Below, piece by piece: positions 7,567-11,198 of a stretch of 64,000 bases of DNA. Position numbers and translations under genes: made by a program. Positions within the stretch are counted from its first letter, which is position 1. The number at the start of each line of letters is the position of its first letter. The stretch comes from Dawidia soli (lineage in GTDB: Bacteria; Bacteroidota; Bacteroidia; Cytophagales; Cyclobacteriaceae): NCBI RefSeq assembly GCF_018598185.1, contig NZ_JAHESC010000042.1, positions 1 to 64,000 of the forward strand, given 5' to 3'. The notes beneath the pieces were generated by a model. The model saw only the letters and a program-made list of their open reading frames with translations, did no database searches and was not told where the DNA came from.

Positions 7567-8322
7567 ATGTCTATTCCTTTTGAGCCTGCCATCGGAGACT
7601 GGAACGTAAACATCCACCTGATCCTGGAGTATGTGGCTTTTTTTACCGCGTATCGCTACTATGTGTATTTGAAGAAAAACGCGGTGGATCAGATCTCGTC
7701 TGGGAACAGGCTCTCGATCATCCTGGGGGCGGCCCTGGGCGCCCTGGCCGGATCACGGATCATGGGATTACTGGAGAACCCGTTGATCGATTTTTCTGCT
7801 GTCGATTTTATGCAGCTATACAATGTCAAAACAATAATGGGAGGGTTGTTTGGTGGACTGCTGGGCGTGGAAATTGCCAAAACTATTATCCATGAAAAGA
7901 ACTCCTCGGGCGATCTGTTCACACTGCCGATCATCGTCGGTATTTTTATAGGACGAATCGGATGTTTTCTGTCGGGCACCAACGAGTTTACCTATGGAAC
8001 GCCCACTTCATTTTTGATGGCAATGGACCTGGGGGATGGCGTGCTGCGTCATCCGATTGCCCTGTATGAGCTCGTGTTTCTGATGATCCTGTTCGTTGTG
8101 ATCCGGAATCTTTATTATCGGAATAATCTCGCCAGTGGTACGCTCTTCAAGATCGTTATGCTAAGCTATTTTGGTTTCCGGTTTTTTATTGAATTCATCA
8201 AGCCGAATCCCTTCCTATTGCTGGGACTTAGCAGTATCCAATGGCTGTGTGTCGTATGTTTTGTATATTACCGAAAAACTTTGCTGAGCCTGTATGCCTA
8301 CACGAAAGTACACCTACTATGA
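7567..8322 (+). CDS. Lgt-like membrane protein (divergent prolipoprotein diacylglyceryl transferase homologue)
   Basis: A 251-aa protein with about seven membrane helices. The Lgt landmarks are there but altered. GRIGCF (129-134) replaces the Lgt signature GRxGNF, keeping the Arg but changing the key Asn (E. coli N146) to Cys133. MGGLFGGLLG (91-100) stands where Lgt has HGG, with Phe95 at the His103 position. RHPIALYE (161-168) and FRFFIEF (204-210, Arg205 and Glu209) are kept. The fold and phospholipid pocket are therefore probably conserved, but ordinary Lgt transfer is doubtful. The last 29 nt overlap the start of a Tes-like radical SAM gene, so the two are almost certainly translated together. 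I infer a role in binding or presenting a lipid substrate. Confidence 0.75.
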   Translation: MSIPFEPAIGDWNVNIHLILEYVAFFTAYRYYVYLKKNAVDQISSGNRLSIILGAALGALAGSRIMGLLENPLIDFSAVDFMQLYNVKTIMGGLFGGLLGVEIAKTIIHEKNSSGDLFTLPIIVGIFIGRIGCFLSGTNEFTYGTPTSFLMAMDLGDGVLRHPIALYELVFLMILFVVIRNLYYRNNLASGTLFKIVMLSYFGFRFFIEFIKPNPFLLLGLSSIQWLCVVCFVYYRKTLLSLYAYTKVHLL

Positions 8323-9679
8323 CTTTACGTTGAGTCTATGTCCGACCTGCCTCAAACGCGTCGACGCAAAGATCGTTTTTGAGGATAACAAGGTGTACAT
8401 GCTGAAGCGGTGCCCGGAGCATGGTCCGTCCACTGTTATCATCGCCGACGATGTCGCGTACTATAAGAACATCCGGAATTATAACAAACCTTCCGAAACG
8501 CCTTATACCTTTAATACCAGGACACACTACGGGTGCCCGTATGATTGTGGTCTATGCCCGGATCATGAACAGCATTCATGCCTGACTGTCGTCGAAATAA
8601 CGGATCGGTGTAATTTAACATGCCCGACGTGCTACGCCGGCTCATCACCTACCTACGGGCGGCATCGTACCCTGGACGAGGTGAAACGTATGCTGGACGC
8701 CGTCGTCACCAACGAACGCGAGCCCGATGTCGTACAGATCAGCGGGGGAGAACCGACGCTTCATCCGCAGCTGTTTGAAATCCTCGACTATGCCAAGTCG
8801 CTTCCCATCAAACACCTGATGCTGAATACGAATGGGATCGAGATCGCCAAAAATCCGGAGCTGGTAAAACGCCTGGCGTCATATGCACCTAACTTTGAGA
8901 TCTATCTGCAGTTCGATTCCTTCCGGAACGAAGTACTTCAGTCTATGCGCGGTGCCCATCTCGTCAGTATACGGGAACAGGCGCTGGAACATCTGAATGC
9001 CTTGAACCTGTCCACCACCCTGGTAATGACTGTTCAAATGAATCTCAACGACGATGAAATCGGCCAGGTCATCGACTTTGCGCTCAAGCAACGGTGCGTA
9101 CGCGGCGTTACGCTGCAGCCCACACAGATCGCGGGCAGATTGGAGAATTTTGACCCCGCCAAAGACCGCATTACGTTAACGGAAGTGCGCCGGAAGATCC
9201 TGGAGCAAACCGGTATCTTTAATGCCGATGACCTCATTCCGGTACCGTGTAACCCGGATGCGCTGGTCATGGGCTATGCGCTGAAGTTGGGAGGCGAAGT
9301 ATTTCCCCTGACACGGTATGTCAATCCCGCGGACTTGCTCGACAATAGTCGCAACACCATCGTTTACGAGCAGGATGAACAGCTCCACAGTAAAATGATC
9401 AAGCTCTTCAGTACAGGCAATTCCGTGGAAGAGGCTACCGAAAAGCTGCACTCGCTGCTATGCTGTCTGCCTCAGATCCATGCTCCGTCGCTTACCTATG
9501 ACAACCTGTTCCGGGTCATTATCATGCAATTTATCGACGCCTATAACTTTGACGTCCGGTCTGTAAAAAAATCGTGCGTGCACATCGTGAACAAAGACTG
9601 TAAGATCATCCCGTTTGAAACGATGAATCTGTTCTACCGGGACGAAAAACGGGAATACTTACAGCAGCTTATCAATTGA
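8294..9679 (+). CDS. Tes-like radical SAM enzyme (tetraether-lipid-synthase-type family)
   Basis: A 461-aa protein. Residues 16-43 form a zinc-ribbon-like site (CPTC, then CPEH). A cysteine-rich block CPYDCGLCPDHEQHSC (81-96) can hold an extra iron-sulfur cluster. It leads straight into the radical SAM triad C106-x3-C110-x2-C113, followed by ISGGEP (149-154). The C-terminal part has more cysteines (pairs near 440-460) and ends in IIPFETMNLFYR. This order is what I know from archaeal Tes/GDGT-MAS, which joins lipid tails through unactivated carbons, and from its uncharacterised bacterial relatives. Coupling to an Lgt-like gene supports a lipid or lipoprotein acyl chain as substrate. The exact reaction is unknown. 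Confidence 0.75.
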   Translation: MPTRKYTYYDFTLSLCPTCLKRVDAKIVFEDNKVYMLKRCPEHGPSTVIIADDVAYYKNIRNYNKPSETPYTFNTRTHYGCPYDCGLCPDHEQHSCLTVVEITDRCNLTCPTCYAGSSPTYGRHRTLDEVKRMLDAVVTNEREPDVVQISGGEPTLHPQLFEILDYAKSLPIKHLMLNTNGIEIAKNPELVKRLASYAPNFEIYLQFDSFRNEVLQSMRGAHLVSIREQALEHLNALNLSTTLVMTVQMNLNDDEIGQVIDFALKQRCVRGVTLQPTQIAGRLENFDPAKDRITLTEVRRKILEQTGIFNADDLIPVPCNPDALVMGYALKLGGEVFPLTRYVNPADLLDNSRNTIVYEQDEQLHSKMIKLFSTGNSVEEATEKLHSLLCCLPQIHAPSLTYDNLFRVIIMQFIDAYNFDVRSVKKSCVHIVNKDCKIIPFETMNLFYRDEKREYLQQLIN

Positions 9680-11102
9680 TCACTTTTGGTTTACAACTAT
9701 GGAAGGACTTGCAGTATTGATCTACCTGTGTTTTGCGATCACCTTTGGTCCGCCGATTCTTTTCTTTGCGATTGGCCTGGTCAAGCGACGCAATGATCCG
9801 AAGAACGCCAAATTCTTTCTCATCCTGGGAGCACTCTGGCTTCTTATAGGCGGCGGGATATGCGCCTCTATTCTGACGCAATAAGATGCCATTTTGCAGG
9901 TACCATTTGCCTGTATTTGTATACCCGCGTACGGGGTAAGTTGCTACGCGGGAAATCGCGCAACCCGGAGAAAGGTTTATGTCGATACCGGCGGAGTATA
10001 CCGGCGCGCTGACCTTTCCGACCGGAGAATAGGGCTCCCGATTCGCTGGACGCGCGTCTCCTGCAGGCGCTACATCTTCCACCGGATACGACATGGCATA
10101 GTGATAAGCCGTTGCTTCCGGCCTGACAGCGACCGTTTTATTCGTCGTATAGACATACCGTATTCCCGGCTCGCGATGTGTTTCGGGCTGCGGTTCGTTC
10201 TCCGGGGCAGGAGCATCCTCCGTCACGACGTCATCCACCGTATCCATACTATCTTTCCCGGCGCCGTCACCGCCATCCTCAGGCGCCCCATCCTTTCCGC
10301 GCAGTGCCAATATCTTCGCCGCTCCAAACCTTTTCACTTCGTCAATCTTCCCATTTTCCCGAAACACGCCGTACTGAATTCCGATCGCCAGCATCAACGT
10401 CCATCCATCCTCCGGCGGGAGCACATTCATCGCTAATTCCAACGTCGTGTTTCCCATCCCTTCCAGCGAAGGGTTCCAATCTGTCGAAGCAGTTTTCGCA
10501 TAACAGGCCTGATCATACCACTTCGCCGGCAGGTATTGTTTTTTAGCTATATCGTACCGTATGTCGGGCACAATCCCCAGCGTAATCGTCAGGCGAAACA
10601 TCGCATGGTTGTTTTGCGGGAAGTAGTTAATATCGCGCAGCAGCTCCGGAATTTCCACGCGCGCCGAGCGATTGGCCCGGTCCAGGGTATAGTATACCGG
10701 TGTACGCACGATCGAGTCGAAACTGGGCGCTTTCTTCGTAGTCTGAAAACCCTCGAGGATCCGGGCATGCTCGGAGAGTATAATTTTACGACGTCCCCAT
10801 TCACCGGTATCGTCGCGTAGTTGTACCAGGCGCATGACGCTGTTGATGTCGCTGCCGAAATTATAGTCTGAAAGCTGCCGGATAGAATGCATCGCCAGGC
10901 GCACATAGCTGCCCAGGCGCGAGCAGCCGCCGAACTCAGACATGGTGTGCCGCGTATTTTCAAAGCTGGGGCTTGTCTTGATTTTTTCCCGGCTCGGGCC
11001 GCCCTTGCGGCGAACAACGATCTTGTCAACGCCGCGCATACGATACGCGCTGAGCATGTCCAGCTTGCCGGTAAAAGCGAAAGGTCCTTCGAGGAATGGC
11101 AT
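9672..11102 (-). CDS. Orphan protein with a long low-complexity tail
   Basis: The frame is open from 11198, but the ATG at 11102 (MPFLEGPFAFTG) is the likely start, giving about 476 aa. Residues 1-270 form a compact domain with conserved-looking stretches (FGGCSRLGSYVRLAMHSIR, RDDTGEWGRRKIILSEHARIL, TTLELAMNVLPPEDGW). The rest is an acidic/proline-rich linker and a basic tail. No family is recognised; similar proteins of unknown role occur in Bacteroidota as far as I recall. The last 210 nt lie antisense to the small membrane protein gene, so the true stop may have been lost and the tail may be read-through. The upstream AT-rich region has repeated CTATTGAA motifs. Confidence 0.5.
   Translation of the reverse strand: MPFLEGPFAFTGKLDMLSAYRMRGVDKIVVRRKGGPSREKIKTSPSFENTRHTMSEFGGCSRLGSYVRLAMHSIRQLSDYNFGSDINSVMRLVQLRDDTGEWGRRKIILSEHARILEGFQTTKKAPSFDSIVRTPVYYTLDRANRSARVEIPELLRDINYFPQNNHAMFRLTITLGIVPDIRYDIAKKQYLPAKWYDQACYAKTASTDWNPSLEGMGNTTLELAMNVLPPEDGWTLMLAIGIQYGVFRENGKIDEVKRFGAAKILALRGKDGAPEDGGDGAGKDSMDTVDDVVTEDAPAPENEPQPETHREPGIRYVYTTNKTVAVRPEATAYHYAMSYPVEDVAPAGDARPANREPYSPVGKVSAPVYSAGIDINLSPGCAISRVATYPVRGYTNTGKWYLQNGILLRQNRGAYPAAYKKPECSQDEKEFGVLRIIASLDQANRKEKNRRTKGDRKTQVDQYCKSFHSCKPKVIN
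9699..9884 (+). CDS. Small membrane protein (2 TM)
   Basis: A 61-aa protein with two strongly hydrophobic helices (about residues 4-27 and 38-58) and a basic loop (VKRRNDPKNAK). It starts 19 nt after the radical SAM stop, so it is probably the third gene of that operon. The opposite strand carries the open 3' extension of the next gene. The clean helix-loop-helix pattern makes me think that this plus-strand ORF is the real one here. Confidence 0.6.
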   Translation: MEGLAVLIYLCFAITFGPPILFFAIGLVKRRNDPKNAKFFLILGALWLLIGGGICASILTQ

Positions 11103-11198
11103 AGTCGATGGGTTAGGGTAACGAGAGGATTTTAGCCAACAGCCGCGGTAAACAGACGGTGTCTGAGCCGAAGATAGGCAATCGTTATTTCCCGTCAA

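Follow-up and report, generated by a model that had tools for sequence, protein, structure and literature searches.

The window analysed here spans 64 kb (positions 1 to 64,000) of contig NZ_JAHESC010000042.1 of Dawidia soli, a member of Bacteroidota with a 7.5-Mb genome. It carries three genes arranged head to tail, which encode an Lgt-like integral membrane protein, a radical S-adenosylmethionine (SAM) enzyme related to the tetraether lipid synthase Tes, and a small membrane protein:

7567-8322, + strand: gene for the Lgt-like integral membrane protein, 251 amino acids
8294-9679, + strand: gene for the radical SAM enzyme of the Tes/TrsS superfamily (assigned by profile matches, tree and residue comparison), 461 amino acids
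9699-9884, + strand: gene for the small membrane protein with two transmembrane (TM) helices, a candidate substrate, 61 amino acids

The first two genes overlap by 29 nt. An operon of these three genes had been predicted from the letters of the window, and comparison with at least 505 relatives confirmed that it is real, with a gene order conserved far beyond chance. The trio is a conserved three-gene module, more than a pair, and constitutes a real and widespread three-component system that matches no described kind found in the open-access literature, where no described Lgt/radical SAM system was found. Each enzyme falls within a known superfamily yet outside the described families as these are delimited by curated cut-offs and key residues, and the system as a whole appears to be undescribed.

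Relatives were collected from species genomes with six homologues as queries, and the best 80 of the at least 505 were treated as named loci. These 80 all come from Bacteroidota (Cytophagales, Flavobacteriales, Saprospiria and others), and in every one the Lgt-like gene lies upstream of the radical SAM gene on the same strand (at L045 the copy was recovered by tblastn). The commonest overlap between the two genes is 8 nt, and at a few loci they are separated by inserts of 1.6 to 5.5 kb. At least one gene for a small membrane protein with a C-terminal cysteine is present at all 80 loci, which rules out that the third gene is an unrelated small open reading frame (ORF).

Co-occurrence was assessed in 296 Bacteroidota genomes drawn evenly across the phylum, with Lgt-like family members called at 118 bits or more (the next match reached 94). 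Each of the two enzymes was detected in 26 genomes, and 25 genomes have both (Fisher p 5e-34, shared ancestry not corrected). In G092 and G327 the two genes sit on different contigs, so linkage alone is insufficient to account for the pairing, and the original proposal of a dedicated Lgt-like/Tes-like pair was upheld even where the genes are unlinked. The sole genome with a radical SAM match only (G124) holds a true Tes (494 bits, above the cut-off) and Lgt of the canonical type only. Of the 25 two-enzyme genomes, all but G092 also have the small gene (24 genomes), either beside the enzymes or at another place. In addition, the inter-sequence distances of the two enzymes are correlated (Mantel r 0.88, 0/2000 permutations). 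Evidence for breadth beyond Bacteroidota comes from a plasmid collection, in which the Lgt-like gene, one or two small-protein genes and the radical SAM gene are clustered on a Mycobacterium avium plasmid, an M. branderi plasmid and a Nonomuraea replicon; the enzymes of these replicons share only about 28-31% identity with their window counterparts.

The Lgt-like protein scores 82 bits against Pfam LGT (cut-off 24.9) and does not reach the lgt equivalog cut-off of TIGR00544 (45.1 vs 118.9 bits). Its AlphaFold2 model (predicted local distance difference test, pLDDT, 82) has the predicted fold of Lgt, with E. coli Lgt (5azb) as the best PDB match (Z 15.0, root-mean-square deviation 4.6, 237 residues; next match 7.0). 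In E. coli Lgt, arginines bind phospholipid and His103 is essential (PMC4728403), and Y26, H103, R143, N146, G154 and R239 have been described as essential (PMC13251419); from this set the window protein keeps only R143, G154 and R239. Across 29 family members the equivalents of Arg143, Arg239, Glu202 and Gly154 are invariant and the Glu243 site is always Glu or Asp, but the His103 site is Met, Val, Leu or Thr and the Asn146 site is Cys in all 29, and the Tyr26 site is His in 26. The corresponding residues of the window protein are R130, R205 and E209 (of the R143, R239 and E243 type, reported to bind the phospholipid in PMC4728403), with M91 at His103, C133 at Asn146 and H17 at Tyr26. This residue table agrees with the original prediction, according to which the lipid-site arginines are kept and the essential Asn and His are absent.

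The family therefore has both links to canonical E. coli Lgt (5AZB), in the common fold and the equivalents of R143, R239, E243, E202, G154, D129 and H196, and differences from it, as the canonical enzyme has His103, Asn146 and a Tyr26 that is mostly His here. H103 is itself variable among true Lgts, and N146C is found in distant ones (PMC13251419). A parallel in residues is offered by the second Lgt homologue of M. smegmatis, MSMEG_5408, which is reported to combine Y26H and N146C as in the present family and is presumed to have low Lgt activity (PMC13251419). Three further canonical Lgts are encoded in the window genome (G000, contigs C29, C50 and C56; L001-L003), all of which keep His and Asn, so the Lgt-like copy is not the housekeeping enzyme. 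The retained residues speak for a functional lipid-binding protein and against a decayed one, and because the Lgt fold and the phospholipid-binding arginines are kept, the system probably acts in membrane or lipid chemistry. The only Lgt-like family gene without a radical SAM partner in the 296-genome sample (L125, 2656-3498, in G075) has no small G-x-C gene nearby and carries Gln at the site of His17.

The radical SAM protein matches Radical_SAM (97 bits) and the HMPTM/Tes N-terminal zinc ribbon (73 bits) in Pfam, which reports no SPASM or PqqD-like domain. Its closest solved relative is Tes/GDGT-MAS (MJ0619 of M. jannaschii, PDB 7TOL/7TOM; sequence E 8e-69, Foldseek 6.8e-26), with which it shares the superfamily, the domain order, the rubredoxin-like site (C16-C19-C40-H43), the N-terminal auxiliary site (C81-C85-C88 with H91), the SAM site (C106-C110-C113), and, in the C-terminal domain, the Tes motifs DAYNFDV and IIPF. 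The original prediction had assigned the cysteine layout of Tes to this protein, and this stands for the rubredoxin-like, N-terminal CX3CX2C and SAM sites and not for the C-terminal auxiliary site, in a domain much of which is modelled below pLDDT 55 (the AlphaFold2 model as a whole is weak, pLDDT 65). Here Tes residues C455, C456, the PFC Cys, M439 and Y459 correspond to S427, C428, E442, M411 and I431 of the window enzyme, and the altered site comprises C319, C390, C391 and C428. In all 25 Bacteroidota members compared, C455, the PFC Cys (after IIPF) and Y459 are replaced, and C456 and mostly M439 are retained; among the cysteines foreign to Tes, C319 is invariant and C390/C391 occur in 23 of the 25. 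The Actinomycetota branch retains the Tes-like CC pair and the PFC Cys and has lost the N-terminal auxiliary site. In Tes the C-terminal cluster region comprises the ligand Met439 and the conserved C455, C456 and PFC Cys, these three presumably also ligands (judged from position rather than coordinates), and Tyr459 is strictly conserved. As Tes chemistry proceeds via this cluster (PMC9433317), which is altered here, the radical SAM enzyme likely runs a reaction other than that of Tes.

By profile score the enzyme lies outside both neighbouring families, and the tree separates it from Tes. It scored 296.5 bits against the NCBIfam Tes model NF045702 (cut-off 450; positive control L115, 493.8) and 328 bits against NF045646, the model of the radical SAM (seleno)protein TrsS (cut-off 490; source listed as Haft & Tolstoy 2025 in PMC13188914), although TrsS is the top-scoring curated model. 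In the tree, the Lgt-linked radical SAM enzymes form one group (support 89/66, which makes a single origin possible but not proved), and Tes is separated by a 100/99 branch. The module enzyme is accompanied by the Lgt-like gene and the small membrane protein, in contrast to the true Tes genomes tested, which have no Lgt-like gene. C319 is common to the module enzyme and the TrsS-like methyltransferase-linked enzymes; unlike these, the module enzyme has no methyltransferase partner. The relatives in Mycolicibacterium vanbaalenii and haloarchaea lie beside a methyltransferase gene, without an Lgt-like gene. In haloarchaea and Mycolicibacterium, a methyltransferase gene follows each TrsS-like radical SAM gene (L107, L109, L110, L138 and L139), and several of these genes are also near DUF547, redoxin or thioredoxin genes. 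Two Tes-type genes of Bacteroidota without an Lgt-like partner, L115 (3864-5318, in G124; 494 bits vs the cut-off of 450) and L137 (2849-4324, in G395), may be regarded as candidates for genuine bacterial tetraether-type chemistry.

The original prediction also recognized the third product as a small membrane protein, correctly, but missed its role as a near-obligate and often tandem component with an invariant C-terminal cysteine. No family above the cut-off was found for it in Pfam or NCBIfam. In the window protein the motif G53-x-C55 closes the second TM helix and six residues follow the Cys; G53 and C55 are kept in 95 of 97 homologues. Over 133 copies, the Cys stands at the end of the last TM helix in 131, its median distance from the C-terminus being 5 residues (3-20), and both Cys-less copies are extras beside a Cys-bearing one. 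Gly occupies position -2 in 117, and Ile or Val position -1 in most. The motif survives sequence drift, being found in Chitinophagaceae-type variants, in divergent Bacteroidota and in Mycobacterium/Nonomuraea, where the protein ends in SxGxCTG[LI]NP or a near variant, vs S-L-G-I-C-G in Flavobacteriaceae. A filter for a C-terminal TM helix with the G-x-C anatomy, applied to the ORFs of the window and of the full-length loci, retrieved exactly one ORF in the 64 kb, the third gene, and its matches in the full-length loci amounted to 1.38 per kb right after the radical SAM gene vs 0.011 per kb elsewhere. With the small-protein profile (E <= 1e-13), 10 genomes were matched, all with the enzyme pair, and none among the pair-less genomes.

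The mean net charge is +3.8 over the 13 residues preceding the last helix and about zero past the Cys, and by the positive-inside rule, applied to charge only, the Cys is predicted to face the periplasm. The protein resembles a lipoprotein signal peptide in its positive start, hydrophobic helix and Cys, with the mature part cut to a few residues; it does not match the lipobox [LVI][ASTVI][GAS]C, with mostly Ile or Val at -1 and the Cys near the C-terminus. Two or more candidate small genes are present in 36 of the 80 loci (the filter picks out as many as three or four), as is usual for peptide substrates. The small protein is the best candidate for a substrate. A long ORF on the minus strand (9672-11198) runs towards the operon and reaches into the small gene in antisense. 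Its residues 33-320 are 64% identical to a protein adjoining a canonical lgt elsewhere in the genome (L002, 339-1703), the part overlapping the small gene is absent from that relative, and the ORF matches no Pfam family.

The distribution of the operon suggests that it has been transferred horizontally, since the window radical SAM enzyme is 90% identical to the Chryseolinea serpens copy but only 66-72% identical to copies within its own genus, where the enzyme is present in only four of seven genomes, the window genome included. Within about 3-5 kb on either side of the operon in L025-L104, lepA was found at 54 of the 80 loci, and rbfA and a LolE-like lipoprotein-release permease lie upstream at 38-39 of the 80 (gene names were assigned by eye); this neighbourhood is probably Flavobacteriaceae synteny.

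We tentatively favour, at slightly less than even odds, a three-part maturation system in which the small hairpin membrane protein is the substrate and the Lgt paralogue attaches a lipid. The final helix of the hairpin, with its cytoplasmic positive start, hydrophobic stretch and Gly-x-Cys at the outer membrane face, would mimic a lipoprotein signal peptide whose lipidated Cys stands almost at the C-terminus. The Lgt paralogue would hold a phospholipid via the retained arginines and modify this Cys, in the simplest case through transfer of a (diacyl)glyceryl group; its own Cys in place of Asn146 may join in the reaction or be linked to that of the substrate. On the cytoplasmic side, the radical SAM enzyme would change the lipid donor or the peptide, before or after the Cys step. 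The predicted periplasmic place of the small-protein Cys fits a proposal for Lgt in which the lipobox peptide comes in through the side cleft and its Cys lies on the periplasmic face (PMC4728403). In its fullest and more speculative form, which we consider possible but doubtful, an Lgt paralogue with an active-site Cys and a Tes/TrsS-related enzyme would jointly mature the C-terminal Cys of tiny hairpin proteins and so yield a novel type of lipid-protein conjugate, a membrane peptide that stays uncleaved and bears its lipid at the C-terminus, its chain perhaps cross-linked or altered by radical chemistry, in an undescribed system of Bacteroidota and Actinomycetota.

Several points weigh against the favoured reading. 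With H103 and N146 both missing, Lgt activity may have been lost; the residue before the small-protein Cys is usually Ile or Val, not the Gly, Ala or Ser of a lipobox; and charge is the one basis of the predicted topology. If this topology is correct, the radical SAM enzyme (cytoplasmic) and the Cys (periplasmic) would lie on opposite membrane faces, and a shared target atom for the two enzymes would require a different order or topology. In G092, where the two enzyme genes are unlinked, the search within several kb of each gene turned up no small gene. Moreover, obligate co-occurrence suits a structural subunit equally well as a substrate. Alternatively, the trio might form a single membrane enzyme whose product is a free modified phospholipid. 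In this case the Lgt-like protein would hold the lipid while its tails are altered by the radical SAM enzyme, and the small protein would act as anchor or gate, with its Cys paired to Cys133 of the Lgt-like protein in a disulfide or metal site. The strict three-way gene association, the invariance of both cysteines (C133 in 29/29, the small-protein Cys in 131/133) and the binding of phospholipids by Tes itself in a hydrophobic pocket (PMC9433317) are in keeping with such a complex, but tandem copies of the small gene and its fast drift outside G-x-C would be unusual for a subunit, and we regard it as rather unlikely.

The chemistry envisaged in the original prediction, in which acyl chains of a diacylglyceryl lipid or a lipoprotein would be coupled as by Tes, draws on the closest solved relative, with three of four metal sites and the DAYNFDV and IIPF motifs in common. 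The formation of C-C bonds between acyl chains has nevertheless become improbable, as the enzyme falls below the Tes cut-off (296 vs 450 bits) and into a separate clade, C455, the PFC Cys and Y459 are replaced in 25/25 Bacteroidota, C319 is no Tes feature, the N-terminal auxiliary site is missing in the Actinomycetota branch, and true Tes occurs without the Lgt-like partner; the loss of Y459 alone is weak evidence, because Y459 variants of Tes stay active (PMC9433317). Least probable, in our estimation, is a system like those of ribosomally synthesized and post-translationally modified peptides, in which the Cys of the small peptide would be cross-linked or modified by the radical SAM enzyme, with the Lgt-like protein as a membrane partner or an immunity or export component of a bioactive peptide. 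A multi-copy small gene with one invariant Cys adjoining a radical SAM gene, and a distribution pointing to horizontal transfer, would be expected of such a system; however, the surroundings of the loci show no obviously conserved gene for a protease, exporter or immunity protein, the Flavobacteriaceae locus is in stable synteny, two strongly hydrophobic helices are unlike known precursors, and the SPASM and PqqD-like domains are missing per Pfam. Taken together, the substrate reading of the small protein is best supported, though unproved, and acyl-chain coupling is weakened.

Surveys have counted bacterial Tes homologues as possible makers of membrane-spanning lipids (PMC8941075, PMC11868695). 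The Bacteroidota group described here branches off separately and is constantly paired with an Lgt-like protein and with a small membrane protein that bears a Cys, and its presence should therefore not be taken as a capacity for tetraether lipids; filing the system under either described enzyme family would presume a function beyond the evidence. If the small protein is indeed lipidated at its C-terminal Cys, the system would represent a new kind of protein lipidation beside the N-terminal lipoprotein pathway, in cultivated bacteria.

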